Assembly: GCF_030540825.1 (NCBI RefSeq)
Contig: NZ_JAUOEO010000001.1
Span: 4,965,546-5,029,545 of the forward strand
Source of the DNA: Flavivirga spongiicola
GTDB taxonomy: Bacteria > Bacteroidota > Bacteroidia > Flavobacteriales > Flavobacteriaceae
Reading direction: 5' to 3'
Length of the DNA: 64,000 nt
The translations under genes and the position numbers were made by a program. Positions 1 to 17,171 of the stretch are shown here, piece by piece (within the stretch, counting starts at the first letter, position 1; the number at the start of each line of letters is the position of its first letter). The notes beneath the pieces are model-generated. The model was given only the letters and a program-made list of their open reading frames with translations. It searched no databases and was not told the DNA's origin.

Positions 1-1
1 A

Positions 2-70
2 ACAATTGAGAAATCTGCACAGGTAGCTATTGTAAATCAGAATAATAAGTTATACATTAACAAAAATTAG
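2..70 (+). CDS. 3' end of an unidentified gene (partial)
   Basis: An open frame enters from the left edge and stops with TAG 17 bases before the STN-type TonB receptor. Only 22 residues are visible, ending in KLYINKN. The next receptor carries an STN signalling domain, and such receptors often follow an anti-sigma factor (FecR) gene, so this could be the FecR C-terminus. That is inference from position only; too little sequence is present to recognise a family. Confidence 0.4.
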   Translation, partial: TIEKSAQVAIVNQNNKLYINKN

Positions 71-87
71 ATTCTAATTTACGTAAA

Positions 88-3054
88 ATGTATTCTCGTA
101 GACTTTTAAAAGTAATCTTGATTTTCATTTTGATTATAAATTATAGTCTTGGGTTAAATGCACAGAATACTGAAAATCAAAAAATAAAATTAACTCACTT
201 TTTATCTAAATTAAGTGAAGAACATCAGGTATTTTTCACTTATGATGTTGATTTGCTTAATAATATTAATATAGATGCAAATCAATTAAATAACACAGAT
301 TTACAACTAATAATTGATTCTTTAAGAGCAAAAACCAATCTTCATTTCGATAATTTGGGCAATAATTACTACGTAATTTATAATGACAGCGAAAAAGGGA
401 AAGCCTCTTTAGAAAATGCAAAGAAGCGATTAAATGAGACTATTGCTACACTTTCTAATTCTAATGGTTTTACAAACTTTACAATGAAAGGCAAAGTTGT
501 TAATATATTTAATGAGCCCCTAGCCGAAGCTAACATTATTGAAAATGGATCTATTAACGGAACAACAACGGACATACATGGAAATTTCACACTACAAACA
601 AATTCAATAAACAACCTATTTATTACCGTTAGCTATGTTGGTTATGCTTCGAAAGTCATTGCTGTTCAAAATGAAAATGATATAACGATTGTATTAGAGC
701 CTGAGGAATCTTTAAAAGAAGTTCAGATAGTTGGTTCAAGAAATGCAAATAGATCGGTATTAGACACCCCTTCAGTAATAGATGTTGTCCAGCTAGAAGA
801 GGCAATCAAAAGAACCGGGCAAATAGAAATAAACCAAATACTTCAGTTTGTTATTCCTTCTTTTAATGCTTCAAAACAATCTGGTGCAGATGGTTCAGAT
901 CATATTGTTCCAGCCACATTGAGAGGCTTGGGTCCCGATCAAACATTAATTCTAATCAATGGAAAAAGGAGACATCAATCGTCCTTAATTAATTTATATG
1001 GAACGCGAGGACGAGGCAATTCGGGAACAGATCTAAATGCTATACCAGCATCAGCCATAGAAAAAATCGAGGTTCTCCGTGATGGTGCTTCCGCTCAATA
1101 TGGATCCGATGCCATTGCAGGCGTGATAAATATTGTTCTGAAAGATGATATAGACACCTTTAACGGAAATATAACCTATGGCTTTAATAATGCCAATGTA
1201 AAAGGAGATTTTAGAAACTCTACATCTGGAATCGATGGCAATACCATGAAACTATCCGGTAATTATGGCATGAAAATTTTAGACGACGGATTTGTAAATA
1301 TCACTACCGAATATCTGTCAAAAGATAAAACCCTAAGACCGGGAGCAGATTTTAGAGAAAAATATGGTGAAGCAGGGTTAAATGAGTATAGTATTTTTAT
1401 AAATACTGAAATCCCCATAAACGATCATTCCAATTTCTATGCTTTTGGTGGTTATAGTTGCAGAAATTCAGAATCTTATGCTTTTACCAGATTTGCAGAT
1501 AGCCCCAGAAATGTTCTTGAAATTTATCCAAACGGATTCAATCCTTTAATAACCGCAAAAATAAAGGACAACTCTATTTCTGCTGGTTTTAAAACCAAAT
1601 TTAATGGCTGGAATATTGATATCAACAACACCTTTGGTAGAAATAACTTTCAGTATTTCATTAAAGAAACATTAAATGCCACCTTATTATTTAATTCGCC
1701 AACAAGTTTTAATGCCGGCGGCCACATCTTAAATCAAAATACTACAGATGCTGACTTTACAAGGTTTTATAAAACCATTTTTAACGGTGTAAATATCGCT
1801 TTTGGCACGGAATATAGAATAGAGAATTTCAAAATATTTGCGGGAGAGCCGGGCTCCTATGCAGCCTTTGATATTAATAAAAACATGGTCGACCAAAACA
1901 CAGCACCAGAGGATTTGGTCATGTTAAATGGTTCTCTACGCCCAAGGGGGTCTCAAGGATTTCCTGGATATGCTCCTGAAAATAAAGTAGATCAAACCAG
2001 GTCTAACTTAGCTTTATATATTGATACAGAATTTGATTTTACCAATAAGTTTATGTTTGGCATTGCGGGGCGCTATGAAAAATATAGCGACTTTGGTAAT
2101 ACATTCAATATTAAACTCTCCTCAAGATATAAAGCTAGCGACAACTTTAATATGCGAAGTGCTTTTAGCTCAGGATTTAGAGCGCCTTCTTTAGCACAAT
2201 TTTATTACAACTTAAAATTTACAAATTTTATAGGTGGTGAACCATCAGAATCCTTATTAGAGTTAAATGATAGCCCCGTAACCCGAAGCTTTGGTATTAG
2301 CAATTTAATTGAAGAAAAGGCTCTTAATGGTAGCCTTGGTTTTACAGCAAAAATGAAGAATTTTAAAGTAAGTTTGGATGCCTATTATGTAAATATTAAA
2401 GATAGAATTATTTTAACAGGAAACTTTGATGCCTCAAATCTTAATTTGAATGTAAACGATGTTCAATTTTTCGCTAATGGTGTGGATACAAGTACAATGG
2501 GTTTAGATGTTATACTAACTTGGAAAAAAAGCATTGCAAACAATTTTTTTTCAATGTCTTTTGCTGGTAATATCAATAACATGACTATTGACAAAATAAA
2601 AAACAGAGCGCTACATGAAGAAACCTTCTTTAGTAAACGCGACCAACATTTTTTATTAGCATCCGCTCCAAAAAGCAAATTTAATTTAAACCTTAATTAC
2701 TCAAATAAAAAATTTAATACCAACTTAACACTTACCAGTTTTAACAAAGTAACCCTTATAGATTGGCAAATCGATATGCCTCTCATTACAGAAGATCCCA
2801 ATTCAGAATATATTGATGAAGCTGACAGATTACAAAAAGCCACAGATACCTATACCCCCAAATTAACTACAGACATAAATATTGGTTATGCTTTAACCAA
2901 GAAAATGGCACTTAGGCTTGGTGCAAATAATCTATTTAACATATACCCTAGCGTACAACAAAACAACTGGACCGATAGTGGTGGCTACTGGGATTCTGTA
3001 CAAATGGGAACTAGTGGCTCTTTTTTATATTCAAATATTTCTTACAAATTCTAG
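88..3054 (+). CDS. TonB-dependent outer-membrane receptor with N-terminal STN signalling domain
   Basis: A 988-residue outer-membrane receptor that would import a ligand using TonB energy. Residues 1-26 are a signal peptide ending near LNAQN. Residues about 30-95 look like an STN domain, the part of FecA-like transducers that signals to an anti-sigma factor. Residues about 132-205 are a carboxypeptidase-D regulatory-like repeat, about 225-345 the plug (with VLRDGASAQYGSDAIAGVIN), and the rest a beta-barrel ending in aromatic YSNISYKF. The plug is near-identical over long stretches to that of the next gene, so the pair arose by duplication. No SusD-like partner follows, so this is not a SusC/SusD glycan system. 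Ligand unknown. Confidence 0.9.
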   Translation: MYSRRLLKVILIFILIINYSLGLNAQNTENQKIKLTHFLSKLSEEHQVFFTYDVDLLNNINIDANQLNNTDLQLIIDSLRAKTNLHFDNLGNNYYVIYNDSEKGKASLENAKKRLNETIATLSNSNGFTNFTMKGKVVNIFNEPLAEANIIENGSINGTTTDIHGNFTLQTNSINNLFITVSYVGYASKVIAVQNENDITIVLEPEESLKEVQIVGSRNANRSVLDTPSVIDVVQLEEAIKRTGQIEINQILQFVIPSFNASKQSGADGSDHIVPATLRGLGPDQTLILINGKRRHQSSLINLYGTRGRGNSGTDLNAIPASAIEKIEVLRDGASAQYGSDAIAGVINIVLKDDIDTFNGNITYGFNNANVKGDFRNSTSGIDGNTMKLSGNYGMKILDDGFVNITTEYLSKDKTLRPGADFREKYGEAGLNEYSIFINTEIPINDHSNFYAFGGYSCRNSESYAFTRFADSPRNVLEIYPNGFNPLITAKIKDNSISAGFKTKFNGWNIDINNTFGRNNFQYFIKETLNATLLFNSPTSFNAGGHILNQNTTDADFTRFYKTIFNGVNIAFGTEYRIENFKIFAGEPGSYAAFDINKNMVDQNTAPEDLVMLNGSLRPRGSQGFPGYAPENKVDQTRSNLALYIDTEFDFTNKFMFGIAGRYEKYSDFGNTFNIKLSSRYKASDNFNMRSAFSSGFRAPSLAQFYYNLKFTNFIGGEPSESLLELNDSPVTRSFGISNLIEEKALNGSLGFTAKMKNFKVSLDAYYVNIKDRIILTGNFDASNLNLNVNDVQFFANGVDTSTMGLDVILTWKKSIANNFFSMSFAGNINNMTIDKIKNRALHEETFFSKRDQHFLLASAPKSKFNLNLNYSNKKFNTNLTLTSFNKVTLIDWQIDMPLITEDPNSEYIDEADRLQKATDTYTPKLTTDINIGYALTKKMALRLGANNLFNIYPSVQQNNWTDSGGYWDSVQMGTSGSFLYSNISYKF

Positions 3055-3203
3055 AAAGATAACTAATTGATTTACAGATTTTTAACATCAAAAATATTGT
3101 TAAGTTAAAAAATAGTTAATCCTCAACGAGTATATTATAAAGTTTATGTGCTTATAAGTTATAAGTGACTAATTCTTTATAATAATAACTTAATAAATCA
3201 TTT

Positions 3204-5903
3204 ATGAAAAAAACAACCCTTTTATTTTTATTAATTTTTAGTGTCTCATTTACTTTTGCACAGCAAAATGTCTCAGGTCTTATCTCTGATTCTTCCGGAA
3301 TACCAATTGCAGGTGTGAATGTCGTAGAAAAAGGAACAACTAACGGTGTTGTTTCAAATTTCGATGGGAAATTCACCATCTCCGTCGATGGAAATTCAAC
3401 CTTGGTTTTTAGCTACATAGGTTACAATTCGTTAGAAGTTCCTGTTAATAATCGACCCATAATTAATGTTACTTTAGAAGACGGTGTTAATCTTGATGAA
3501 GTCATTTTAGTCGGTTCTCGTAGCCCTAGAAGAACAGCTACAGACACTCCAGTTCCCGTAGATGTCTTAGATGTTGCAGATATTGCATCAACCACAGGTA
3601 AGGTTGAAGTGAATGAAATATTGCAATATGCTGCCCCCTCATTTAATGCCAGTAAGCAATCAGGTTCAGATGGAGCTGACCATATTGTACCTGCTTCTTT
3701 ACGTGGTCTGGGACCAGACCAAACCCTTGTTTTAATAAATGGTAAACGAAGACACCAATCCTCTTTAGTAAACGTTTTTGGAACTAGAGGTCGTGGAAAT
3801 TCAGGAACTGACCTTAATGCCATTCCTGCAAACGCTATTAAAAGAATAGAAGTACTAAGAGATGGCGCTTCTGCTCAGTATGGTTCTGATGCTATTGCTG
3901 GCGTTATTAATATTGTTTTAAAAGATAATACCGATGGTTTTTCTGGGGGTATTACCTATGGTGCTTACAGTACAGCTATCGGTGATGGTTGGGAAGATGC
4001 AACTGGTGAAACACTTAGTAACGTGGAAGGTAAAAACCGATTAGACGGTGATGATAAAAGTTGGGATGGTGAGACTGTTAAAATAGATGCCAACTATGGT
4101 GTTTCATTAAATGATAAAGGCGGTTTTATAAATTTCACAACAGAATTCTTATCAAGACAAAATACCTTAAGACCTGGTTTTTCATGGAGAAAAGGTTATG
4201 GTAGTGCAGGAATTGATGGTTTTAACTTTATGATTAACGCTGCTTTACCCATAAATGATAACACTGAAGTGTATGCCTTTGGTGGCAGAAACTTTAGAGA
4301 TACAAATGCGTATGCATTTTCTCGTGGAGCGTTCGATGATGCTCCTAATGGAGAACTTCGTACAGTTTCAAGTTTATACCCAAATGGTTTTACACCAAGA
4401 ATTACATCGTTAATTACAGATGTATCTATCTCAGCTGGTATAAAGCATAAAATGGATAATGGTTGGAATTTAGATTTTAATAATACTTTTGGAAAAAATA
4501 ACTTTCATTATTACATAAAAGGAAGTAATAATGCTTCTATGAAAGACGCATCTCCTACCGATTTTGATGCTGGCGGTCATTTTTTATCACAAAACACTAC
4601 AGGGATAGACTTTAGTAAATATTTTGAAGATATTGCTTCTGGGATGAATATTGCTTTTGGTATGGAATATAGGACAGAGAATTTTGGGATTTTTGCTGGC
4701 GAAGTTTCTTCTTATGGGCTTTATGATGAGAATGGAGCCGTAATCACCAACCCTGCTGCCCAGAGTGTTGCTACATCTCCGTTAGGGAATGATTTACCTG
4801 GAGGTTCTCAAGGCTTTCCTGGATATAGCCCTGACAATGAGGTTGACAGAAGCAGATCTAATTATGGTATTTACTTCGATTCAGAACTTAATGTAAGCGA
4901 AACTTTTATGCTAGCTGCTGCTGTTAGATATGAAAATTATAGTGATTTTGGGAGCACCATTAACGGAAAACTAGCCAGTAGATTAAAAATTAGTGATGAC
5001 TTTACACTAAGAGGTTCTATCTCTACAGGATTTAGAGCACCTTCCCTTGCACAATTATACTATAACTTGATCTTTAATAATATTGTTGCCGGTGCGTCAG
5101 TGCCTTCTTTATTATCTGCAAACAACAGTACCGTTACTAAAGCTTTTGGTATCGGACAATTAAATGAGGAAAAGGCCTTTAATGCTAGTATTGGATTTAC
5201 TTATAAAAATGGTGGATTTACGGCAACTGTTGATGCCTATTCTATTACCGTAGATGATAGAATTATTTTAACTGACAACTTTACAGATCAAACCATTTTA
5301 GGTCCCTTGAATGTGGATGCTGCACAATTTTTTGCTAATGGTGTAGACACTAAAACCAGTGGTCTTGATATTGTTTTAGGTTATGAAACTAATGTTGGCG
5401 AGCATGGTAAGGCAAGAATTGGATTGATTGGTAATTTTAATGATCTGGAGATTAAGAGTATTAATAATGGTAACTTAAACGAATTTACCTTTTTTGGTCC
5501 ATTCTCTCAAGCCTATCTTGAAGCTGCCGCTCCCGATTATAAATTTGGACTTAATCTGGGATACTCATGCAAAAAGTTTGATACTACAGTGTCATTAACA
5601 CAATTTAGTGAAGTAACTCTTCAGGATTTTCAGTGGGTGGACTCCCCTGCTACAACTCAAGCAGAAGCAGATGCCCTTTTCCCCGTAGCAACAGATATTT
5701 ATGAAGCCGCTTTAGTTGTAGATCTTAGCATAGGGTATCAATTATCTGAAAAGGTTAAATTTAGCTTGGGAGCTAACAACCTGTTTAATAAATATCCGAC
5801 ACCTCAATTTGATGGATGGACGGATCAAGGTGGTTTAGCCGATTCTGTTCAGATGGGGTCTGATGGCACCTATGTTTTTGGAAGACTTAATTTTAAATTA
5901 TAA
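3204..5903 (+). CDS. TonB-dependent outer-membrane receptor (paralogue, no STN domain)
   Basis: An 899-residue receptor with a signal peptide (residues 1-19, cleaved near TFAQQ), a carboxypeptidase-regulatory-like domain (about 22-95), a plug (about 110-235) and a C-terminal beta-barrel ending in FGRLNFKL. It shares long plug segments with the gene before it, including LRGLGPDQTL and GRGNSGTDLNAIPA, but lacks the STN domain. The pair may be a signalling receptor and a transport receptor for related ligands. The 149-base gap between them allows separate promoters. A strong terminator follows. The plug resembles the GKRRHxS type widespread in proteobacterial receptors; substrate not deducible. 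Confidence 0.9.
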   Translation: MKKTTLLFLLIFSVSFTFAQQNVSGLISDSSGIPIAGVNVVEKGTTNGVVSNFDGKFTISVDGNSTLVFSYIGYNSLEVPVNNRPIINVTLEDGVNLDEVILVGSRSPRRTATDTPVPVDVLDVADIASTTGKVEVNEILQYAAPSFNASKQSGSDGADHIVPASLRGLGPDQTLVLINGKRRHQSSLVNVFGTRGRGNSGTDLNAIPANAIKRIEVLRDGASAQYGSDAIAGVINIVLKDNTDGFSGGITYGAYSTAIGDGWEDATGETLSNVEGKNRLDGDDKSWDGETVKIDANYGVSLNDKGGFINFTTEFLSRQNTLRPGFSWRKGYGSAGIDGFNFMINAALPINDNTEVYAFGGRNFRDTNAYAFSRGAFDDAPNGELRTVSSLYPNGFTPRITSLITDVSISAGIKHKMDNGWNLDFNNTFGKNNFHYYIKGSNNASMKDASPTDFDAGGHFLSQNTTGIDFSKYFEDIASGMNIAFGMEYRTENFGIFAGEVSSYGLYDENGAVITNPAAQSVATSPLGNDLPGGSQGFPGYSPDNEVDRSRSNYGIYFDSELNVSETFMLAAAVRYENYSDFGSTINGKLASRLKISDDFTLRGSISTGFRAPSLAQLYYNLIFNNIVAGASVPSLLSANNSTVTKAFGIGQLNEEKAFNASIGFTYKNGGFTATVDAYSITVDDRIILTDNFTDQTILGPLNVDAAQFFANGVDTKTSGLDIVLGYETNVGEHGKARIGLIGNFNDLEIKSINNGNLNEFTFFGPFSQAYLEAAAPDYKFGLNLGYSCKKFDTTVSLTQFSEVTLQDFQWVDSPATTQAEADALFPVATDIYEAALVVDLSIGYQLSEKVKFSLGANNLFNKYPTPQFDGWTDQGGLADSVQMGSDGTYVFGRLNFKL

Positions 5904-5925
5904 TAATTACTGAGTGACTAATTCT

Positions 5926-5965
5926 AAAAGAGGTTATCTGAATCAGATAGCCTCTTTTTCTTTCT
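5926..5965 (+). terminator. Rho-independent terminator after second TonB receptor
   Basis: A 15-bp stem (5926-5940 with 5944-5958, one G-T pair, loop AAT) is followed by a T-rich tract. It sits 22 bases after the receptor stop and would end its transcript. Confidence 0.85.
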
Positions 5966-6040
5966 TAATTATAAGGTTTCAATAGCTCTCTACGTAACAT
6001 TTTTCTAATTGATTCGTCAATATTTATGAAACCATCGATT

Positions 6041-7516
6041 ATGAAAAAATTAGCCTTACTTACCGTCCTTTTACTTATTGGAATAAACATCCATTCTCAA
6101 AATATCACAGCCAAACTAGTAGACAAAAGTAATGATGCTCCCATACCCTATGCCACTATTAAAACAGGTGAATTTAGTGGTGTTATTTCTAACGAAGAAG
6201 GTTATTTTAGTTTGAGTTTAGAAGATCTTCAAACTAAAACCATTACTATTTCTTGTATGGGGTATCAAAACAAAACACTTAGTATCAAAGCTATCAAGGG
6301 GTTTAACTTTGTGGTTCCTCTGGAAGCAGCTATTAATCAACTTAATGAGGTTTATATTAGTAATAAAAGACCAAATGCAGATTCCATTATTGCTAGAACA
6401 AAAGCAAAACTTGGCGAGAATTATGATATTAATCTTAACAAATACAACATATTTTATAGAGGTACAGAATATGCCAATTTTAAAAGTTTAGATTTTGAAA
6501 TTGAAAAAGCGTCGCATGTTAAGTCAAAAAATTTAGAGAAGGCGAATAAAAGTTTAGACTCTCTATCAAAACATATTATATCCAGTAACATTATCCATTT
6601 TTCAGATTTTAAGGGTGAATTGTCAAGTCTAAATAAAGATAGTACCAAACTGGTTGTTAATAAAGCTACCAAACTTATTGACCATAAGAATGACTTCTCT
6701 ATTGACGCTGTACAAGAAAAAGCACAAACATTGGTATTAAAATACCTGGATACTACGAAAACCTATAAAGTAAAAACGGGATTATTTAAAGTTGAAGATT
6801 CACTGTCTTTAAAAGATGAAGATTTTAAAGACGATGAAAAAAATGAATATGAAGTGTCTCATTTAAAAAGTACGACAGGTTCGTTATTACGCAAATCTAT
6901 GTTTGTAGATAATTCTTTTTTAAAAACCATTTTAGACTCTAAATTATACGATTACACTTTTGAAGATGTAGGCTATAACAATGGTGACCTCACCTATATT
7001 ATAAGTTTTAAACCAAGAAAAGGAAAAGCAAAATTTACAGGTAAATTATTTATATCGGACGAAAATTATGCCATTACTAAAGTTGATTATAAATATTACG
7101 GATCACGCCACGGAAAAAAGGTAAATTTAAAATTTCTTCTTGGCATCAAGTTTATAGAAAATGTTAGTGAGGGCACTTATATCTATGAAAAAAACAGTGC
7201 CAATAAATACCAACCAAAATATATTAAAAGAATAAAAGGAGCTTATTTTTATGTGAATAGAGATTTAAAACTTATTGAAAATAGCCACGAAAAAAACAAA
7301 GTTGGCTTTAGCTTTAAAATTGAAGGTGATAACCGTAATAAAGAAGAAATACTTTTTACAGATATTAATCATATTACTTTAGAAGATTTCGCTTCAATAA
7401 AACAAGAAAAAGTAGCACCGTTCACCATGTTAAAAGCTTTTGAAAAAACGATGTGGCAAAATGAAGAAACCTTAGAGCCTTTGGAAGAAATGAAACGGTT
7501 TGGGAGTGGGGAATAG
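6041..7516 (+). CDS. Exported carboxypeptidase-like regulatory domain protein
   Basis: About 491 residues. The start at 6041 is preferred over the upstream ATG at 6026 because it gives a clean signal peptide (MKKLALLTVLLLIG, cleaved near HSQ). Residues about 20-95 form a carboxypeptidase-D regulatory-like beta-sandwich of the kind found at the N-terminus of TonB receptors (PYATIKT..GVISNEEGYFSL), but no plug or barrel follows. The remainder is beta-rich and lysine-rich, with no catalytic motif I recognise. Such proteins are common envelope proteins in Flavobacteriaceae with unknown roles. It follows the receptor pair but is separated by a terminator, so it is probably transcribed on its own. 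Confidence 0.8.
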   Translation: MKKLALLTVLLLIGINIHSQNITAKLVDKSNDAPIPYATIKTGEFSGVISNEEGYFSLSLEDLQTKTITISCMGYQNKTLSIKAIKGFNFVVPLEAAINQLNEVYISNKRPNADSIIARTKAKLGENYDINLNKYNIFYRGTEYANFKSLDFEIEKASHVKSKNLEKANKSLDSLSKHIISSNIIHFSDFKGELSSLNKDSTKLVVNKATKLIDHKNDFSIDAVQEKAQTLVLKYLDTTKTYKVKTGLFKVEDSLSLKDEDFKDDEKNEYEVSHLKSTTGSLLRKSMFVDNSFLKTILDSKLYDYTFEDVGYNNGDLTYIISFKPRKGKAKFTGKLFISDENYAITKVDYKYYGSRHGKKVNLKFLLGIKFIENVSEGTYIYEKNSANKYQPKYIKRIKGAYFYVNRDLKLIENSHEKNKVGFSFKIEGDNRNKEEILFTDINHITLEDFASIKQEKVAPFTMLKAFEKTMWQNEETLEPLEEMKRFGSGE

Positions 7517-7735
7517 TTTGGATTACGCTTATCGGTTCGGCTATGAACAGTACGGGAGCAAACTAGCGTTTACTTTCCGCCACGCACATAGCAAAATCTT
7601 TTTGTTTTGTTTTTTCTTTTCTTGTTTAAAGCAAAATCCCAAAGATTTTGCGGACTTCATAAAAATACATAAACCTTTCGATTAAGCCCAAAGCCTGTAT
7701 TGTTTATAGCCTTTGTTATGCATAGTTAATTGTAT
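7517..7735. repeat. Structured non-coding repeat bordering the Ntn-hydrolase gene
   Basis: No credible gene. The stretch contains a perfect 11-bp inverted repeat, GCAAAATCTTT at 7591-7601 and its complement at 7641-7651. It ends in TTGTTATGCATAG. From memory, similar sequence (cataaaaatac... attaag...TTGTTRTGCRTAG) recurs next to single genes in Flavobacteriaceae genomes. A 61-residue open frame across it (7500-7685) looks spurious. Confidence 0.5.
7715..7731 (+). repeat. Left arm of inverted repeat enclosing the Ntn-hydrolase gene
   Basis: GTTATGCATAGTTAATT. Its complement recurs at 8597-8613 with 15 of 17 positions matching. The arms lie 20 bases beyond the stop and 3 bases before the start of the enclosed gene. 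Confidence 0.7.
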
Positions 7736-7750
7736 TCTATTCATTTTCCC

Positions 7751-8593
7751 TTAAATTTTTATTGGGCATTTTTCACTTCTTTTAATCCATTCAATTTTTC
7801 CGTTCTTATAAATTTTAACTATGTTCAATGGTAAACCTGTCTTGTCAGGATTAGCTTTGACCTCAGTCATTAATAAATCTTTAATTACCTGATCAGGGTG
7901 TTTGGAAAAAACGGTCGGATCTTTTACATACTCATCAATAGCAGAATGAGAACCTATATAAAAAGCTTTCGCATCAGTTTTTTTTGAACTCGGTAAAGGG
8001 AAAACCTTTTCTACAGTTTCAAGCTGATAAGTTTTAGAATCAGTTAATGAAAATCGACACATATAAGCAAAAGGTATTCCTTCTTCAAGTCCAATAATAA
8101 CATAGGTGAAAACAGGGTTATGTTTAAGATAAACACTATTGTAATAATCAGGCATTCCTTTTCTTATATCCTCCGCTTGTATAAGTAAAGATTCTTTGAG
8201 TTTTGTATTTGCCATTGCAATAGCCGAATTAAAATTGTCACCATCTTTAATTTGATTTCCTATGATATATGGTAATACGTTTAGATTTGACATTTTTCCG
8301 ATGACTCCCGAAGCAGAGAAATAATATTTTCCCACTTCAAATATCTTAACGATTTCTTGGAACTTTAATTCACCTGTAATTCCGTCTTCTATCCCCATTT
8401 TACTATCAACCCCAAGCAACACGTAATCTGAAGTAACAATAATTACAATCGTTGTCGCATGCAATTGATTTGTTGATACTGAAGTAATGAAGAGGGCAAA
8501 AATCAAACTTAACACTAGCCGTTGATACTTATTTATGTTTGAAATGGTTATAAAGCTATTATTTTCCATACTGAAATTATCTTGAGACTTCAT
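7751..8593 (-). CDS. Exported proteasome-beta/HslV-like Ntn-hydrolase family protein
   Basis: 280 residues. An N-terminal hydrophobic signal (about 22-46) ends LHA, directly followed by Thr47-Thr48-Ile-Val. From Thr47 the protein follows the proteasome beta/HslV pattern: Thr1 equivalent Thr47; Asp17 equivalent Asp63 at exact spacing; Lys33 equivalent probably Lys83 in VKIFEV; SGVIG (95-99) for the Gly47 loop; a YVIIGLEEG strand (164-172); GSHS at 214-217 matching GSGS; and D250-K-T-G253 in place of the family's RDxxSG segment. Family members cut amide bonds with an N-terminal Thr. Here signal peptidase could expose the Thr, which would make it a periplasmic or surface enzyme. Activity and target are unproven. 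Flanking inverted repeats suggest the gene is a movable unit. Met9 (8569) is a possible alternative start. Confidence 0.75.
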   Translation of the reverse strand: MKSQDNFSMENNSFITISNINKYQRLVLSLIFALFITSVSTNQLHATTIVIIVTSDYVLLGVDSKMGIEDGITGELKFQEIVKIFEVGKYYFSASGVIGKMSNLNVLPYIIGNQIKDGDNFNSAIAMANTKLKESLLIQAEDIRKGMPDYYNSVYLKHNPVFTYVIIGLEEGIPFAYMCRFSLTDSKTYQLETVEKVFPLPSSKKTDAKAFYIGSHSAIDEYVKDPTVFSKHPDQVIKDLLMTEVKANPDKTGLPLNIVKIYKNGKIEWIKRSEKCPIKI

Positions 8594-8596
8594 TTT

Positions 8597-8613
8597 GATT
8601 AATTATGCATAAC
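8597..8613 (-). repeat. Right arm of inverted repeat enclosing the Ntn-hydrolase gene
   Basis: Read on the minus strand: GTTATGCATAATTAATC, matching the left arm at 7715-7731 in 15 of 17 positions. It sits 3 bases before the ATG of the enclosed gene. Confidence 0.7.
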
Positions 8614-8618
8614 GACTT

Positions 8619-8647
8619 GATATAAAACCATTTTAATGTTTTATATC
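8619..8647. repeat. Perfect 10-bp stem-loop beside the inverted-repeat arm
   Basis: GATATAAAAC at 8619-8628 pairs with GTTTTATATC at 8638-8647 (9-base loop). It lies just outside the right arm of the cassette and may be part of its boundary structure. No T-tract suggests a terminator. Confidence 0.5.
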
Positions 8648-8732
8648 TAATGATAAGCGAAGTTATAATTTTTACGCAAGAAAATAAATACAAATTAAAT
8701 TAGTTTATACAATTTATATTAACAATAAAAAC

Positions 8733-8760
8733 AAAAATCCTAATCCAAAAGCCTAGGATT
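8733..8760 (-). terminator. Rho-independent terminator of the methyltransferase gene
   Basis: Stem AATCCTA (8736-8742) with TAGGATT (8754-8760). On the minus strand it is followed by TTTTTGTTTTT, so it ends the minus-strand transcript from 11116. Confidence 0.75.
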
Positions 8761-8783
8761 CAATATATAAACTAAATAAATTA

Positions 8784-9422
8784 TCATTTAATAGCACTCC
8801 CATGAACTTGAGGAATAATAGGAATAAATGGTGAGTATAAATTATATGTTTCTAACTCCAACTTACTAAATCCAACAGATTCTAATAATTGCTTGGTATT
8901 TCTATTGGTGTGGCATCCTTCAAAAAACCAATGCCATGGCTTATGAATCAAACTTTGAATAAATGACAGCATCGTATTTTCTCTAGCCTCCACATGTTCA
9001 ATGAATATAAAAATGCCAGAAGGCTTTAAGATGCGTTTAATTTGCTGAAGACATTGTAAAGGATCATGAACTGTGCATAAAACTAATGTACAAACCACAA
9101 AATCATAAGACGCATCGGGTAAATCAATAGCTTCCCCCATAAGTGACTTGATCTCTAAATCGATACCATATTTCTCTGCGCTTTTTTTTAAATTATTATG
9201 CATATAAATATTAGGCTCAATAGCTATAAGCCTTGTTCCTTTTTTTAGATAACGCATATTAGCACCAGCACCTGAACCAATTTCAACAACAGTTTCCGGA
9301 TGGTTTTTAAAAAGTTCTCGTTTTGAATTTCCGAAAAGTCTATCCATATACCCAGAAAGCATTTTAAAAATAAACGCATTTATGGGACCACGAATAGCAT
9401 TAGTTTGAAATTTATTAGCCAT
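8784..9422 (-). CDS. Class I SAM-dependent methyltransferase (METTL7/UbiE-like)
   Basis: 212 residues with a Rossmann methyltransferase fold: motif I VVEIGSGAGANMRYL, the acidic motif II in IAIEPN, a DASYDFVVCTLVLCTVHD stretch and LKPSGIFIFIEHVE. The C-terminal part (WHWFFEGCHTNR) resembles methyltransferase-like 7 proteins, which methylate small thiols or lipids. Substrate unknown. It lies 9 bases downstream of the M43 protease gene and is probably co-transcribed with it and the sterol-desaturase gene. Confidence 0.85.
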   Translation of the reverse strand: MANKFQTNAIRGPINAFIFKMLSGYMDRLFGNSKRELFKNHPETVVEIGSGAGANMRYLKKGTRLIAIEPNIYMHNNLKKSAEKYGIDLEIKSLMGEAIDLPDASYDFVVCTLVLCTVHDPLQCLQQIKRILKPSGIFIFIEHVEARENTMLSFIQSLIHKPWHWFFEGCHTNRNTKQLLESVGFSKLELETYNLYSPFIPIIPQVHGSAIK

Positions 9423-9431
9423 ACTTATATA

Positions 9432-10340
9432 TTAGGGTTTAAGCGCATGACTCGATAATAAAGCTTTACGTCCTTCATGATGTTCCAACACATAATGCAT
9501 TCGAGCAATCTGATCGTTGGTAAACATGTTCATTGTCTCATCATGAGACCAAGTCATATAATTGTTAAGCATTACAGGCTCTCCTTCACATCCTATAAAA
9601 GGATTATTATAAACAGGTTTGTCAACTGCAGGAGTATCATCGCAGTAATCATTGTTTTCGCAATCACCCCCTCCCCAAGTATGTAATACTCCTAAATAAT
9701 GCCCCATTTCGTGAGTTAGTGTTCTACCAAATCGTGCATAACATGCAATATCTGATTCTCCAAAATGCATCCAATTAATTAAAATACCTTCCGCGTCACC
9801 TGGTTGTGGTAATGAAAAAAACTCTGTTCCTGGTAAATCTGTTTCTGGTCCTGTCGCTAAACCTAATACAAGGCATTCTGAAGGTTCTGGTAAGGGTGTC
9901 GTCCAAATATTAATATAATCTTTTGGATTCCAATAAGCATATTGAGCATAATGATTTTGATTGTGTCCCAGATCAGGTACGATGACCTTGGTTGAATCTA
10001 TTCTATTGATACCGCTAAAAGGTTTCCCATCAGGGTCTTGTTTTGCTAAAACAAACTCAATTTTAGCATCGCCTCCATCGGGATGATGATTATAACCTCT
10101 AGTTCCTTCTTTTTTACGAAAATCTTCATTTAATATTTCGATTTGCCTTTCAATACGTACATTTGAAAGGTTTGTACCCTCTCCAATGGGTTTACCATTA
10201 TGTATAATATGGACTACCACTGGTAAATAGAATATATCTTCTTTTGGATTAGAGGTTGCTTGATCGTTATCTTTTGAACACGAGCTCAATAATAAGCTTA
10301 TTACGAATATGATATTTTTAATAGTTTTCAAGTCCATCAT
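9432..10340 (-). CDS. M43 (pappalysin/cytophagalysin-like) zinc metalloprotease lipoprotein
   Basis: 302 residues. The N-terminus has a lipoprotein signal (ISLLLSSCSKD). The catalytic zinc site is THEMGHYLGVLHTW at about residues 208-221 (HExxHxxGxxH), followed by a Cys-containing YCDDTPAVDKP region and the downstream YMTWSHDETMNMFT segment that supplies the Met-turn typical of M43. It is predicted to be anchored in the envelope and to cleave extracellular or periplasmic proteins. The ATG overlaps the stop of the upstream desaturase gene by 4 bases (ATGA), implying translational coupling. Confidence 0.9.
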   Translation of the reverse strand: MMDLKTIKNIIFVISLLLSSCSKDNDQATSNPKEDIFYLPVVVHIIHNGKPIGEGTNLSNVRIERQIEILNEDFRKKEGTRGYNHHPDGGDAKIEFVLAKQDPDGKPFSGINRIDSTKVIVPDLGHNQNHYAQYAYWNPKDYINIWTTPLPEPSECLVLGLATGPETDLPGTEFFSLPQPGDAEGILINWMHFGESDIACYARFGRTLTHEMGHYLGVLHTWGGGDCENNDYCDDTPAVDKPVYNNPFIGCEGEPVMLNNYMTWSHDETMNMFTNDQIARMHYVLEHHEGRKALLSSHALKP

Positions 10341-11116
10341 TTTTGTTTGGTGATATCTTTAAACATAAGCATATCCAATATTCTATTAGAAGCCCCTAAA
10401 TAATAACCTGTTTCGCACTCATAGGTCTCGGGATTTTTAAAGGTGCCAAACAACATATCTATAATAGGTAAGTCGGTATAATTATATTTATGAACTCCCT
10501 TAGCATGGTGTAACGTGTGGCTTTCTGGTCGTTGAATAATATACCCAATCCATCTTGGTGTATTAATATTAGCATGTTGAAATACGCCTAAGAAAGTAGT
10601 AAATAGAATAATCGCAGTAATAGCTTGTGGAGATAATCCTATAATAACAGCAAAACTGATAGAACCGACTAATGATAAGCCAATCATATCATTAATACTA
10701 AAGACAAACGTACTGGGAACATCTAAGCGTTCTGAACTATGATGCATTTGATGAGATAGCCTAAACAAAAAGTTAGATTTATGCATACTTATATGCCAAC
10801 CATATTGTACAAGCTCAAATAAAAATATACCTAAAATTATTTGTACCGTCAAACTTAAGTAGCTTAAATCAATTAACTGAAACCTAGCAAAAAAGTCGTC
10901 CCATAATAATGGAATATATGTCGTTACCAACATAAACACCATAAAGAAAAGTAATCCACGAAGCTTCCAAAATTTTATTTTGGGTAACTGTCTCGCTGGA
11001 AATAATGATTCCCAAATAAATAAGCCTCCAAAAATAGCGTAAACGATTAATGAAACGGGATCGATTAAAATTTCTATAGGCGTTGGTAATTGTGAAATGA
11101 TAGTTTCTAAATTCAT
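10337..11116 (-). CDS. Sterol desaturase / fatty-acid hydroxylase family membrane protein
   Basis: 259 residues with about four hydrophobic segments and the histidine boxes of the di-iron membrane hydroxylases: HISMH, HQMHHS and HTLHHAK. Members oxidise lipid, sterol or carotenoid chains in the membrane; the substrate cannot be told. It is the first gene of a three-gene minus-strand unit with the M43 protease and methyltransferase. Confidence 0.85.
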   Translation of the reverse strand: MNLETIISQLPTPIEILIDPVSLIVYAIFGGLFIWESLFPARQLPKIKFWKLRGLLFFMVFMLVTTYIPLLWDDFFARFQLIDLSYLSLTVQIILGIFLFELVQYGWHISMHKSNFLFRLSHQMHHSSERLDVPSTFVFSINDMIGLSLVGSISFAVIIGLSPQAITAIILFTTFLGVFQHANINTPRWIGYIIQRPESHTLHHAKGVHKYNYTDLPIIDMLFGTFKNPETYECETGYYLGASNRILDMLMFKDITKQK

Positions 11117-11299
11117 AGTTTTAAAATTTTTTTACAAAACTATAGACAACTAAAAAAACGAACTAAAAATTGTACTTGATCTATGTTAGGAATTCACTAA
11201 CTATAGCATTATCAAGTCATTTTCAGGGTATATTTATTTTTTTTATAAATTTACAGTTCACCCCCCTCTTTATCTCCCTCTTAATTATAATCTACTATT

Positions 11300-12082
11300 A
11301 TGAAATACTATTCATTATTATTCGTATTATTCATTGCGCTGTCATGTTCTAAAAAAGAGGATGAAACACCACTACAAAATGAAGACAATCAAGACAACAC
11401 AGATATCACTGATAGTTTTGATGGCTCCGGTGCTTTAATTGACTTTGTAACTAATAATGCTTCATCATTACCCGATGTTTCGAGACTATCTGGAAGGTAT
11501 CGTGCAGCTCTAACAGATAACTCAGATAATAAGACCTTGCATTTCAATCAAGAACAAGGCCGATTAGACGCAAAATTAGTAGCTTTTCCTTTCGAATTTA
11601 TAGCAAGAAATATTGGTATTGGCACTATAGAAAATTCGCAAATAGCTCCAACATCAGAAAACAATCCTTATAATTTTGCAGGAGTTCAAGTTCATGTAGA
11701 AGATTTCAACTCTATAAATTCTTCTCATGTCGTTGTAGGACACAGAGGAGCAACTGGTTTTACTATTGAAGGAAAAAACACTTTAAATGGAGATTCTTCT
11801 GTGAACGATATAGGAGAAAATACAGTACCAGAAGGAAGAGCCGATATAAGAATTGTGGGGAATAAAAACAAAACAATTACGGTTTACTGGCAACTCCCTA
11901 ACCTAACAGGTCATAGTGCATCTGATAATTGGACGGCTTATAATGGAACCGGAAACCTACCTGGAACGGCTCCAACTTATGGTGATAATGTCTATGTTGG
12001 ATTGATTACCTATGCTTTCTATACCACAGGTGTTCCTTTTGTAGGCACTTGTGATGCTATCGAAATTAAAAAACCCAATTAA
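11300..12082 (+). CDS. Hypothetical lipoprotein
   Basis: 260 residues. It has a lipoprotein signal (LFIALSCSKKEDE), then an acidic Asn/Asp-rich linker to about residue 45, then a beta-rich domain with a double VVVGHRGATGF / ADIRIVGNKNKTITVYW pattern and a late Cys (VGTCDAIEI). The layout suggests a lectin-like or carbohydrate-binding sandwich, but I do not recognise the family. It stands alone, facing away from the desaturase gene. Confidence 0.7.
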   Translation: MKYYSLLFVLFIALSCSKKEDETPLQNEDNQDNTDITDSFDGSGALIDFVTNNASSLPDVSRLSGRYRAALTDNSDNKTLHFNQEQGRLDAKLVAFPFEFIARNIGIGTIENSQIAPTSENNPYNFAGVQVHVEDFNSINSSHVVVGHRGATGFTIEGKNTLNGDSSVNDIGENTVPEGRADIRIVGNKNKTITVYWQLPNLTGHSASDNWTAYNGTGNLPGTAPTYGDNVYVGLITYAFYTTGVPFVGTCDAIEIKKPN

Positions 12083-12087
12083 TAATT

Positions 12088-12245
12088 GAACTCATCTTGA
12101 CTTTTATTTTTAACCGAAAATGAGATAAAATTTGTTTAGATGAGATACTTTTTGAAAGGCATAGCATCGCTAAGCATAAAAAAAGCAACAAAATATGGGC
12201 AAATTTTAGCCGTTTTTAGGAAATAGAAAAAGTCAATATGAGTTC
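12088..12245. repeat. Palindromic element D (possible divergent family member)
   Basis: Terminal arms GAACTCATCTTGACTTTT (12088-12105) and its complement at 12228-12245 match at 17 of 18 positions. Length 158 bp. The middle holds CATAGCATCGCTAAGC, loosely like the core of elements A-C. The arms lack the ATACC end of A-C, so membership is tentative. Confidence 0.55.
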
Positions 12246-12249
12246 ATTC

Positions 12250-12816
12250 TCAGGAATGTAATTTCTTTCTAATTCTGCTTAAGCTTTCTGGATGAATTCC
12301 TAAATATTTAGCTATTTTATTAACTGGAATGTTAGATATATATTGGGAATGCGTATGAAACATTTCAGCATAACGTTCTTCAGCTGTTTTTGTTAAAAGA
12401 TCCTTTTCTCTATTAGATTTTCTTATATAACCATATTCAGTCATAATTCTTCCAAACTTATTTACATCTAATGAAAAATCATAAGCTTGCATCAAAACCT
12501 CACGCTCGATCACTTCCATTTCGCAATCTATTAATGCTACAATTTGCACATCAGTAGGTTGCTGATCTAAAAAAGAAGTAAATCCGCAAAACATTTCTTT
12601 TTTGAAAAAGAAATCTACTATTTTTTCAGACATGTAACTTTTAATGGTCATTTCAACAATACCACTGTTCATAAAATATAAAGAATCCTCAATCTGCCCA
12701 TACACAGTAACGACCTCTCCTTTTTTAAAATGACTTTTTTTTACAGGAAAAGGGAAATCTTCGTATGATGCAACCGAAGTATTTAAAATCTCGTTATAAA
12801 ACTCTAAAAAAGTCAT
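12250..12816 (-). CDS. Crp/Fnr-family transcriptional regulator
   Basis: 188 residues: a cyclic-nucleotide-binding-type beta-roll (about 20-115, FKKGEVVTVYGQIEDSLYF) and a C-terminal winged helix with the recognition segment KIAKYLGIHPESLSRIRKKL. No Fe-S cysteine cluster is present, so it is not a true Fnr oxygen sensor. Such regulators are common and mostly uncharacterised in Flavobacteriaceae. It stands alone; element D lies directly at its 3' end. Confidence 0.85.
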   Translation of the reverse strand: MTFLEFYNEILNTSVASYEDFPFPVKKSHFKKGEVVTVYGQIEDSLYFMNSGIVEMTIKSYMSEKIVDFFFKKEMFCGFTSFLDQQPTDVQIVALIDCEMEVIEREVLMQAYDFSLDVNKFGRIMTEYGYIRKSNREKDLLTKTAEERYAEMFHTHSQYISNIPVNKIAKYLGIHPESLSRIRKKLHS

Positions 12817-12999
12817 GTGTTGATATGTGTCAAAATTTGAAGTTAGAAGTTCGATTATACCATAAATAAGTATCCTGTAAATTTAACGAAATACTATTAT
12901 CTTATACAAAATATAGGGTTTTGTTCTCTATATAGATACTATTTCTAGTTAATGGTTGCGTACATTCATATTAGCTTAAGGTATATTTAAATATTTTAA

Positions 13000-13030
13000 T
13001 AAAAAAATCCCAAGCCAAAAGCTCAGGATT
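13000..13030 (-). terminator. Rho-independent terminator of the ferredoxin gene
   Basis: Ten-bp stem (13006-13015 with 13021-13030, two G-T pairs) followed on the minus strand by seven T. It lies 30 bases after the ferredoxin stop. Confidence 0.8.
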
Positions 13031-13059
13031 CATTTTATAAATTAATATAGTCTATAGAC

Positions 13060-13413
13060 TTATCCTTCAGGATGCATAAATTTCTGCTTAGCTAACAATT
13101 CTTCTTCTGTTTCTACCACATCCTCATCAGGAACACAACAATCTACAGGACAAACTGCAGCACATTGTGGTTCATCATGAAATCCTTTACATTCTGTACA
13201 CTTGTCCGGAACTATGTAATAAATCTCGTCACTTACAGGTTCTTGTGCTTCATCGGCATCTACTTCACTTCCATTAGTTAATACAACGGTACCTTCCAGA
13301 CTAGTACCATCTTTATAGCGCCAATCATCGGCACCTTCATATATTGCTGTATTTGGGCACTCAGGTTCGCAAGCACCGCAATTTATACATTCATCTGTTA
13401 TTATAATAGCCAT
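13060..13413 (-). CDS. 4Fe-4S dicluster ferredoxin
   Basis: 117 residues from the ATG at 13413, which begins [20 protein letters not shown]; a longer frame to 13482 adds an untypical leader. Cluster I ligands are [12 protein letters not shown]; cluster II is [18 protein letters not shown]. The C-terminus has CC plus an acidic tail, as in flavobacterial ferredoxins next to acyl-CoA reductase genes. It is a small cytoplasmic electron carrier, divergent from the LuxC-like gene and probably sharing its promoter region. Confidence 0.9.
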
Positions 13414-13437
13414 AGCGTTTTTTCTCTTGAGTTTGCT

Positions 13438-13445
13438 TAAATTTG
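13438..13445 (+). promoter_or_regulatory. -7 box for the acyl-CoA reductase gene
   Basis: TAAATTTG fits the Bacteroidota -7 consensus TAnnTTTG, 45 bases before the chosen ATG. No clear -33 box at the usual distance. Confidence 0.45.
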
Positions 13446-13489
13446 CAGACGCAAAAATAACGCCAAAACCATTCATAACCAAATACAGA

Positions 13490-14548
13490 ATGAATTTACA
13501 ACAAAGAATTAACGCTTTTGTAAAATTAGGAGATTTTTTAGGTCAATTTTCTAATGAAGTTATTCTAAAAAAAGATAATGTTGAACATAACGATATATTC
13601 TTCGATGGTTTTAAACATCAATTAAAATTAGCTGAAGAAAACAATGGTTGGTTTACACAGGAAAATATTCGATTTTCACTTAATGGCTGGGCGGAATCTT
13701 TAACAGCTGATCATCTAAATAAATGGCTAGCATCGTATCAAATTAACATTACTCAACCTAAACAAGTTGCCATTATTATGGCCGGAAATATCCCGTTGGT
13801 AGGTTTTCATGATTTTTTGTCAGTACTTATTTCCGGACATCATGTTTTAGTAAAACAATCATCAAACGATAAACATCTATTACCTTATTTGGCAAAATAC
13901 TTAGAATTTGTTCAACCAGAGTTTAAAGGAACTATATCTTTTACCGAAGACAAAATAGAAGGTTTTGATGCCGTAATAGCAACAGGAAGTAATAATACAG
14001 CACGTTATTTTGAGTATTATTTTAAAGACAAACCATCTATTATAAGAAATAACAGAAATTCGGTGGCTGTTTTAAACGGCAAAGAAACTAAAGAAGATCT
14101 CGAAGCGCTTTCTGAAGATATTTTTAGATATTATGGTTTAGGCTGTAGAAATGTATCTAAATTATTTGTTCCAAAAGATTATAATTTTGATACATTTTTT
14201 GAAGCTATGTATCATTGGCATTCTATTATAGACAAAGCAAAATATGCTAACAATTATGACTATAATAAGGCGGTGTACTTAATGAGTGAATTTGATATGT
14301 TGGAGAATGGTTTCTTAATGATAAAGGAAGATAACAATTATGCGTCCCCTATCGCCACTATTTTTTATGAATATTATGATTCCTCTAAAAAATTAAAAGA
14401 AAAATTAAATATAGATAAGCAACAAATTCAATGTATTGTCGCTAATGGATTTACAGAAAATGAAATCGCTTTCGGAGAGACTCAAAAACCTCAACTTTGG
14501 GATTATGCAGATAGCATTGATTCTATTGAATTTTTGTTAGCAATTTAA
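13490..14548 (+). CDS. LuxC-like acyl-CoA reductase
   Basis: 352 residues from the ATG at 13490 ([16 protein letters not shown]); the longer frame from 13427 overlaps the divergent promoter. The fold is aldehyde-dehydrogenase-like of the LuxC family: NAD-binding [41 protein letters not shown], and a [13 protein letters not shown] segment with the likely nucleophile Cys. Members reduce acyl-CoA to aldehydes. The physiological role in flavobacteria, where the gene sits beside a ferredoxin and serC/serA, is unclear. Confidence 0.85.
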
Positions 14549-14628
14549 TCAAAAAATTATTAAATTTTTAATACTAAATACCCAATTAATTAGGAACTTT
14601 GCATCTTAAATTTTATCCCATCCTCAAT

Positions 14629-14714
14629 CCTTCCCAAAAGGGAAGGAAGGTTGGAGTTAAAAATAAATATTAACTAAAAATTCGCCCATAAAATCCCCTT
14701 TCTTTTGGAAAGGG
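14629..14714. repeat. Two C/G-rich hairpins upstream of serC
   Basis: Hairpin 1: CCTTCCC-AAAA-GGGAAGG (14629-14646). Hairpin 2: CCCTTTC-TTTTG-GAAAGGG (14696-14714), ending 14 bases before the serC ATG. They resemble dispersed repeats seen between Bacteroidota genes and stand out from the AT-rich surroundings. Confidence 0.6.
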
Positions 14715-14728
14715 TTAGGGATAGGAAA

Positions 14729-15793
14729 ATGAAGAAACATAACTTTAGTGCAGGCCCATGTATTTTACCTCAAGAAGTATTACTTAAAGCTTCAGAGGCA
14801 GTCATTGACTTAGATAACAGCGGTTTATCTTTAATTGAAATCTCACACAGAAGTAAAGCTTTTGTAGACATTATGGAAAAAGCTAGAGCATTAGCTTTAG
14901 AATTACTGGGATTAGAGGGTAAAGGTTATAAAGCTTTGTTTTTACAAGGAGGAGCTAGTACACAATTTTTAATGGTCGCTTTAAACCTTTTGGAAAAAAG
15001 AGCTGGTTATTTAAATTCTGGTACTTGGGCAGATAAAGCCCTTAAAGAAGCAAAAATTTATGATGACATTTACGAACTAGGTTCTTCAAAAGATGCCAAT
15101 TATAATTACGTTCCTAAAGGTTACGAAATCCCTTCAGATTACGATTATTTTCACTGTACTTCAAACAATACTATTTTTGGAACACAAATGAAAGCATTTC
15201 CAAAATGTGATATTCCGTTAGTTTGCGATATGAGTAGTGATATTTTTTCTCGCACACTGGATTTTTCTAAATTCGATTTAATCTATGCCGGTGCACAGAA
15301 AAATATGGGGCCAGCAGGAACAACTCTTGTGGTCATTAAAGAAGATATTCTTGGAAAAGTATCACGTAAAATTCCATCAATGATGGATTACAAAACACAT
15401 ATAAGCAAAGGCAGTATGTTTAATACACCTCCTGTATTTGCAGTATATACATCCATGTTAAATTTAGAATGGTTGAAAAACCTTGGTGGTATTGCAGCCA
15501 TTGAAAAAGAAAACGAAAAGAAAGCACGATTAATGTATTCAGAAATTGACCTAAATCCATTATTTAAAGGATTTGCTGCTAAAGAAGATCGTTCTGACAT
15601 GAATGCTACTTTTACTTTAGAAAACGAGAACTTAAAGGAAACTTTTGAAACCATGCTTAAAGAAGGCGGAATTAATGGTTTAAACGGTCATAGAAGCGTT
15701 GGTGGTTATAGAGCATCTATGTACAATGCATTACCTCTAGATAGTGTAAAAGCATTGGTTGAAATCATGAGTGAATTAGAAAGTAAAGCTTAA
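14729..15793 (+). CDS. serC: Phosphoserine aminotransferase
   Basis: 354 residues from ATG 14729, giving the family start MKKHNFSAGPCILP; an upstream in-frame ATG at 14705 lies within the hairpin region. Fold-type I PLP enzyme: the lysine binding PLP is Lys191 in GAQKNMGPAG, with phosphate-binding GGASTQF and C-terminal GHRSVGGYRAS. It converts 3-phosphohydroxypyruvate and glutamate to phosphoserine in serine synthesis, and often also acts in pyridoxal-phosphate synthesis. serA follows, so the two consecutive pathway steps are linked. Confidence 0.95.
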   Translation: MKKHNFSAGPCILPQEVLLKASEAVIDLDNSGLSLIEISHRSKAFVDIMEKARALALELLGLEGKGYKALFLQGGASTQFLMVALNLLEKRAGYLNSGTWADKALKEAKIYDDIYELGSSKDANYNYVPKGYEIPSDYDYFHCTSNNTIFGTQMKAFPKCDIPLVCDMSSDIFSRTLDFSKFDLIYAGAQKNMGPAGTTLVVIKEDILGKVSRKIPSMMDYKTHISKGSMFNTPPVFAVYTSMLNLEWLKNLGGIAAIEKENEKKARLMYSEIDLNPLFKGFAAKEDRSDMNATFTLENENLKETFETMLKEGGINGLNGHRSVGGYRASMYNALPLDSVKALVEIMSELESKA

Positions 15794-15805
15794 ATAGAAA
15801 ATTTT

Positions 15806-15925
15806 GTCATTCCCTCTTAGGAGGGAATCTCATAAATTAAAACTTAATTATAAAAAGATTTCCGTCTTCACGGAAATGAAAAAATAAAATAAATTATTAA
15901 AAGATTCCCACCTTCGTGGGAATGA
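15806..15925. repeat. Three short palindromic repeats between serC and serA
   Basis: Copies at 15806-15830 (inverted), 15856-15879 and 15902-15925 share the form AGATTyCC..GGrAATGA with a hairpin-forming centre, e.g. AGATTCCCACCTTCGTGGGA. They are REP-like units; the first faces the other two. Confidence 0.75.
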
Positions 15926-15940
15926 TAAAAATAAAGTTCA

Positions 15941-16891: not shown

Positions 16892-16900
16892 TTTTAGGTT

Positions 16901-17062: not shown

Positions 17063-17088
17063 TACATGTGACCTAAACGTTATAATTG

Positions 17089-17119
17089 AGTCCTAACATA
17101 TATGTTAGGACTTTTTTTG
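17089..17119 (+). terminator. Rho-independent terminator after serA
   Basis: Stem AGTCCTAAC (17089-17097) with GTTAGGACT (17104-17112), followed by seven T. Confidence 0.85.
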
Positions 17120-17171
17120 TACATTGAACAATCAATTTTACTAACCAATTTTCAATTAACAATATAATATT

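Follow-up and report, generated by a model that had tools for sequence, protein, structure and literature searches.

An exported proteasome-like threonine hydrolase predicted in Flavivirga spongiicola, and its sparse family

Introduction

The proteasome-type hydrolases known so far act in the cytoplasm, and the best studied of them are served by ATPases. Both HslV (ClpQ) and the beta subunits of the 20S proteasome place the catalytic set Thr1-Asp17-Lys33 on the N-terminal nucleophile (Ntn) fold. Among secreted Ntn-hydrolases, those of the choloylglycine-hydrolase/penicillin V acylase type have their nucleophile uncovered by leader removal, as we propose for the protein described here, but they use Cys and belong to another Ntn subfamily. 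Here, we analyze a 64,000-nucleotide stretch of the genome of Flavivirga spongiicola (RefSeq GCF_030540825.1, contig NZ_JAUOEO010000001.1, positions 4,965,546 to 5,029,545, forward strand; the window), which carries at 7751..8593 on the minus strand an open reading frame (ORF) whose translation has 280 residues (P0001). Its product is probably a threonine Ntn-hydrolase of a proteasome-like family that acts outside the cytoplasm, most likely in the periplasm, and that, as far as its sequence allows us to predict, would be activated by the cut accompanying export.

In the model that Huber et al. (2016; PMC4792962) propose for the proteasome, self-cleavage and proteolysis share one triad, Thr1-Lys33-Asp17; Ser129 and Asp166 form a second group that serves the Thr1 amine, and Gly(-1) is positioned for self-cleavage. 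More recently, Fuchs, Alva and Lupas (2021; PMC8665760) reported 22 novel proteasome homologs, of the same superfamily as P0001 and like its family patchily spread, with some on phages. In the available sections of that paper, propeptides are attributed to most beta and HslV subunits and to no other homolog, and no exported member is described; words beginning with secret, periplasm or extracellular are absent from its main text. P0001 is set apart from the 22 by their description in the text, and its membership among them is possible. Because that account restricts propeptides to beta and HslV subunits and describes no exported member, exported proteasome homologs, with or without a propeptide, look new against the open-access literature and a word search of a 2026 review. 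Where the phrase ‘secreted proteasome’ was traced in soil or Acidobacteria papers, it stood in each case in the citation of a single article (Coluccia and Besaury, 2023).

The P0001 family gives significant profile-to-sequence and profile-profile matches to HslV. However, HslV is cytoplasmic, lacks a signal peptide and has about 183 residues in the eight proteins seen, whereas P0001 has a hydrophobic leader with a rule-compatible candidate cleavage site and a mature part about 60 residues longer. An HslU-like ORF is present in the fetched stretch of seven of the eight HslV genes (none in L011; by eye), while inspection by eye of the ORFs of at least 80 residues at positions 1-18000 of the window showed none beside P0001, in agreement to that extent with the first-pass annotation, which had reported no ATPase partner nearby. 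We know of no signal peptide in Anbu. Its C-terminal helix H5, as described in the available sections of PMC8665760, is absent from the predicted models, and that of P0001 ends in strands. With the 20S beta subunits P0001 shares the catalytic set, the fold and the structural pairing of its Thr with residue 1, and many of its relatives resemble them in having Gly(-1) leaders; it differs in its export-type hydrophobic leader, in having Lys instead of Arg at position 19, and in that the Ser129 and Asp166 positions are unconserved.

Kinship to the proteasome family

With P0001 alone as the query, a search of 5.8 billion proteins returned one relative, P0002 (56% identity), and a search of 395 genomes of its class returned three distant proteins; profile searches added P0003-P0005 and L008. 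A wider alignment, A3, has 12 members, 10 of the 11 others being only 18-24% identical to P0001, and includes four (L017, L023, L027 and L028) that were fetched with a DNA pattern requiring Thr1, Thr2, Asp17 and Lys19. Against nine targets identified by eye, eight of them HslV and the ninth a proteasome beta subunit from an archaeon, the family profile scores 15.8-28.9 bits, as opposed to 5.4 bits for the best of 100 column-shuffled profiles and less than 0 for the reversed profile, and the nine targets score 10.3-27.9 bits when P0001 and P0002 are left out of it. Against PDB sequences, the A3 profile gives 100 matches at E<=1, the best 60 of which are all proteasome subunits, HslV or BPH, and hhalign aligns the family to the eight HslV proteins at E 7.4e-6 (probability 84). 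A smaller profile of five members, A1, matches 11 of 395 phylum genomes, these being the source genome, G114 and G871, which hold family members, and eight whose matches read as HslV by eye.

The fold agrees with this assignment. Two predicted models have the proteasome-type Ntn fold (alpha-beta-beta-alpha), as the first-pass annotation had anticipated, and structural comparison starts its alignments by pairing Thr47 with residue 1 in Anbu and in many beta subunits. The search with PF00227, which that annotation had suggested, divided the family: six of the 12 A3 members match at E<=1 (best 7.9e-5), and P0001 itself has no match up to E 10. Its kinship is consequently based on the family profile and the fold. 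Other searches with P0001 alone gave only DUF2606 in Pfam (E 0.37) and were likewise unhelpful or negative with NCBIfam and the PDB. Run on all 12 members, NCBIfam and PHROGs gave weak matches, unrelated ones included, among which were HslV (one member, E 0.018), archaeal proteasome beta (one, 0.025) and a ‘peptidase HslV family’ phrog (three, best 0.014). In its own 5.9-Mb genome P0001 matches only itself (E<=1), and PF00227 finds nothing there over the cut-off (best 11.8 bits, at another locus), whereas the same search is positive in 11 of 14 control genomes; since PF00227 misses P0001 too, this speaks against HslV and ordinary proteasome subunits in that genome, and not against divergent homologs.

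Catalytic residues and their conservation

The mature Ntn-hydrolase domain is predicted to span residues 47-280 (7754..8455; this and all features of P0001 below lie on the minus strand). Its putative nucleophile is Thr47 (8453..8455), the equivalent of Thr1 by alignment and structural match. Asp63 (8405..8407) is position 17 counting from Thr47, exactly the Thr1/Asp17 spacing that the first-pass annotation had pointed out. Lys65 (8399..8401) aligns with position 19, which is Arg19 in the yeast proteasome, and Lys83 of a VKIF segment (8345..8347) is position 37 by plain count and the Lys33 equivalent by the A3 alignment, which bears out the role given to that segment earlier. Thr47, Asp63, Lys65 and Lys83 are identical in all 12 A3 members. 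As the search pattern itself demanded Thr1, Asp17 and Lys19, the unbiased count for these three is that of the eight members fetched without it, all of which keep them; Lys33 was absent from the pattern.

The loops are weaker evidence than the first-pass annotation implied. The SGVIG, GSHS and DKTG segments had been placed at matching loops of the proteasome/HslV fold, and in position they do fit, with Gly96 of SGVIG (8306..8308) as the putative oxyanion residue Gly47, Gly214-Ser215 of GSHS (7949..7954) in the Ser129 loop and Asp250-Gly253 of DKTG (7835..7846) in the Asp166 loop, all by alignment. The Gly47 position is Gly in nine of the 12 and Ala in P0003-P0005. The residues expected to act from the other two loops are unconserved: in GSHS the Gly is invariant (12/12) and the Ser is found in two members, and in DKTG the Asp occurs in four and Gly253 in 11. 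The A3 members thus keep the first set of Huber et al. (2016), Thr1-Lys33-Asp17, and not the second.

The expectation that relatives would keep the Thr-Asp-Lys set holds throughout A3 and gives way in more divergent proteins. Outside A3, Arg stands at position 19 in L032, L033 and L054, the Asp lies one or more places beyond 17 from the Thr in L030 and L032, and L053b has a Gly-preceded Ser, four residues further on, that fits the spacing of 17 better than the Thr does. L030 and L032, together with L029 and L033, form a group with a Thr-Cys start, in which the Cys would be position 1 if no insertion is assumed. These may differ in activity, because a Thr1-to-Cys change inactivates yeast beta5 according to PMC4792962. 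In the Thr-Cys genes at L046:7685-8404 and L048:7408-8133 (both minus strand), Cys, not Thr, lies 16 residues before the Asp, and a switch of nucleophile is possible in them.

The leader and the release of Thr1

The leader of P0001 (residues 1-46; 8456..8593) has a basic stretch (KYQR), an n-region up to residue 25, a hydrophobic core at about residues 26-40 (8474..8518, from hydropathy and the predicted model) and a c-region that ends in LHA directly before Thr47-Thr48-Ile-Val, an arrangement read correctly in the first-pass annotation and confirmed in the translation. Its best 9-residue hydropathy value is 3.1, at residue 26; the predicted model has a helix at 22-36, with a predicted local distance difference test (pLDDT) score below 50 at residues 1-19 and 35-42. 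Met9 is a second possible start. Signal peptidase sites follow a -3,-1 rule under which Leu at -3 is permitted, if not optimal, and Gln at -1 is unexpected. Four sites in P0001 are compatible with it, after IFA33, ITS38, SVS40 and LHA46.

Leaders were compared across 17 family members with a readable start, leaving out L029 and L033, whose starts are uncertain, and the frame-split L040/L042. The hydrophobic leader is strong in 16 of them (best 9-residue mean 2.1 to 3.8), the exception being L002, whose leader has eight residues only (best mean 1.3). In five members a -3,-1 site is flush with Thr1, namely P0001 (LHA), P0002 (LSA), L023 (SFS), L028 (ARA) and L030 (GFS); counting the flush site, each of these leaders contains one to four that are compatible with the rule, and the -1 residue is Ala or Ser, such that, to judge from these sequences, signal peptidase can deliver the free Thr. 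Nine others have Gly at -1 (L003, P0004, P0005, L002, L008, L017, L031, L053b and L054), and in every one of them except L002 a candidate site lies 2-12 residues upstream. Such leaders are suggestive of self-cleavage, pointing to a second route to the free Thr; signal peptidase acting alone is, on this comparison, not the family-wide rule. The split is not absolute, in that the Gly(-1) itself passes a loose -3,-1 rule in five of the nine. The remaining three leaders are equivocal: that of L032 and the two with Gln at -1, from L004 and L027.

The exposure of Thr47 by signal peptidase, as first proposed, is therefore a supported prediction: its fit to the rule and the recurrence of the flush arrangement in four relatives stand on one side, and the competing sites and the Gly(-1) relatives on the other. 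The same leaders admit the alternative, in our estimate unlikely, that exported P0001 loses only part of its leader to signal peptidase or another protease and then releases its Thr1 by cutting itself, as proteasome beta subunits do, LHA being the end of a short propeptide. A cut at IFA33, ITS38 or SVS40 would leave such a propeptide, as would the upstream sites of the eight Gly(-1) relatives; the Ala or Ser at -1 and the flush site in the five members, P0001 among them, argue against it.

Several observations weigh against an exported, signal-peptidase-activated proteasome homolog. As to kinship, besides the lack of a PF00227 match, the nine HslV/beta targets reach no more than 2.1-11.5 bits when P0001 and P0002 are used by themselves, so that the link of P0001 to the proteasome runs through its relatives; Foldseek template modelling scores are moderate among the 50 matches listed (at most 0.52 by query length and 0.64 by target), and P0002, the closest relative, comes from a contig of 1,113 bases. 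It is the leader that could overturn the reading. LHA is one of four candidate sites and has a suboptimal Leu at -3; HslV precursors have a similar leader end (...NLHATT in L010, ...NQIHATT in L009), whereby LHA may be an inherited propeptide end, as the self-cleavage alternative would have it; L002 lacks a signal peptide, Thr1 is preceded by Gln in L004 and L027, and one of the five flush leaders, that of L030, is from the Thr-Cys subgroup. The n-region is also long (25 residues, or 17 from Met9), and an uncleaved anchor or a cut elsewhere is possible. If the leader were such a signal anchor, Thr47 would never become N-terminal and P0001 would be a membrane-anchored, catalytically dead Ntn-fold protein like the proteasome alpha subunits; this we consider highly improbable, given a hydrophobic core of only about 15 residues and the retention of Thr1, Asp17, Lys19 and Lys33 in all eight members fetched without the pattern, which argues for catalysis.

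As to activity, the unconserved Ser129 and Asp166 positions suggest that proteolysis may be weak or that the activity may be another one. P0001 might instead use the same acyl-enzyme chemistry to ligate proteins or peptides, or act as an amidase on small molecules, which would be compatible with export and with either route to Thr1, and which we hold to be unlikely. The second triad that supports efficient proteolysis (PMC4792962) is unconserved in the family, and one proteasome homolog, Connectase, is known to be a ligase (PMC8665760). However, Connectase is marked by the absence of H1/H2 and by two helices inserted between strands 3 and 4, and the predicted model of P0001 shows neither hallmark: it has helices at 106-117 and 121-146, none between 42 and 96, and its last strands at 257-262 and 267-271.

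Other loci also bear on leader ends. The HslV genes L010:1267-1812 and L009:1414-1962 (both minus strand), with NLHA/TT and NQIHA/TT compared with NQLHA/TT in P0001, make a shared origin of the leader end conceivable. The region L055:6665-7615 (minus strand) holds a second acidobacterial copy with a flush GRA/TT leader, split over two frames by a broken gene or an assembly error.

Proposed mechanism and significance

The family, the fold, the catalytic set and the leader types are shown by computation; the following scheme is built on them. The P0001 precursor would be exported by the Sec machinery and cut by signal peptidase I after LHA46, leaving an N-terminal Thr47 with a free amino group, and the enzyme would thus be switched on by export with no need of self-cleavage. 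Thr47 would then attack an amide carbonyl, with Lys83, held by Asp63, as the general base and Gly96 helping to form the oxyanion hole, and the acyl-enzyme would be resolved by water or another amine. Because ATP and an unfoldase are absent from that compartment, the substrates are expected to be peptides, unfolded segments or one specific partner, and not folded proteins fed through a ring. In the Gly(-1) relatives, the signal peptide would be lost first and a short propeptide then self-cleaved.

If this is true, the exported branch would show the fold to be functional in the absence of an unfoldase and its activation to be transferable to signal peptidase from self-cleavage, a point that bears on the evolution of Gly-Thr autolysis. 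Moreover, a family that keeps Thr1-Lys33-Asp17 and not Ser129/Asp166 puts the two-triad model of proteasome catalysis to a natural test.

Distribution

The search of 5.8 billion proteins yielded four relatives with A1 and two with the wider A3; as the wider profile yields fewer, this search is limited by its word filter and scarcity is not to be read from it. The DNA pattern (Thr1-Thr2...Asp17-Ser/Thr-Lys) retrieved two viral contigs (L017 and L018) and six genome stretches: L023 (KSB1), L025, L027 (Cnuella takakiae), L028 (Acidobacteria gp4), L026 and L024. Some of these are duplicates, with L018 encoding the L027 protein and L025 the L003 protein, of which P0003 is a shortened form; L026 reads, by eye, as a genuine beta subunit of an archaeal proteasome. 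L024 was rejected as a short frame taken to be due to chance, and so was L005 (G742), which matches in the leader region only and reads as an ExbB/MotA-like protein. The A3 profile added L029-L033 from a family in which six of 301 genomes match, with the seed G114 among the six, and further copies lie in L053-L055.

In the searched sets the family is rare: four of 395 class genomes have it, the source genome included (at most six candidates scored per genome), and one of 64 genomes in the family of G350. A search of the source genome's family gave two of 397 genomes, one the source itself and the other a false leader match. No match was returned by tblastn of P0001 against phage and plasmid records or of the L027 protein against phage records; a viral scan with the L017 protein found itself only, and a second DNA pattern found nothing. 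A tree of 20 sequences is mostly unresolved, and we claim no order of leader types.

Genomic setting and mobility

P0001 lies between a gene for a CarboxypepD_reg-domain protein (6026-7516, plus strand) and a methyltransferase gene (8784-9422, minus strand). The former is matched in all 12 genomes of the genus, the source included (partially in G1404); no P0001 relative (E<=1e-5) is found in about 8 kb beyond it in the nine of 11 genus mates fetched. Both sides, with a full-length methyltransferase, were recovered in five mates, where the spacer of 0.58 to about 5.4 kb holds other genes or, in the shortest, no ORF of 70 residues. Positions 7517-8783 of the window thus look like a hotspot whose cargo differs among the five.

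Elsewhere in the family, Cnuella takakiae members (L053:3717-4514 and 7839-8579, plus strand; L054:7340-8134, minus strand) are proteasome-like genes with hydrophobic leaders in apparent prophage regions, L054 with head, major-head and tape-measure neighbours and L053 with a tail-fibre-like match. Another member is on IMG/VR contig L052, where three neighbours tested have no PHROG match; no mobile neighbours were seen by eye around L044, L045 and L050. A member without a signal peptide (L002/L043) directly follows a TIR-domain gene (PF13676, 1.2e-15), the two occupying L043:7781-8626 and 8678-9355 (plus strand) between phage-integrase, ArdC-like and AAA_13 genes; this may be a defence or mobile-element pair, one such locus having been found.

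The gene thus often behaves as mobile cargo, and a role of the family in conflict is possible. A more speculative extension, which we put forward with considerable doubt, is that these proteins form an undescribed, sparse clade of exported proteasome homologs working ATP-free outside the cytoplasm, with two routes for freeing Thr1 (signal peptidase alone, or with added Gly-Thr self-cleavage), carried on prophages and other mobile DNA and acting in conflicts at the cell envelope, for example by cutting or ligating surface or phage proteins.

A palindromic intergenic repeat precedes the P0001 gene (8596..8690), with related copies in genus-mate spacers and at two other places in the source genome. 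It is not supported by eye as an integron attC site, as the known box sequences do not fit and the flanks are inverted. An inverted GTTATGCATA(A/G)TTAAT pair lies at 7715-7730 (plus strand) and 8598-8613 (minus strand). One of the family genes in L053 comes after a gene (L053:2665-3663) whose trypsin-like match is weak and falls below the cut-off.
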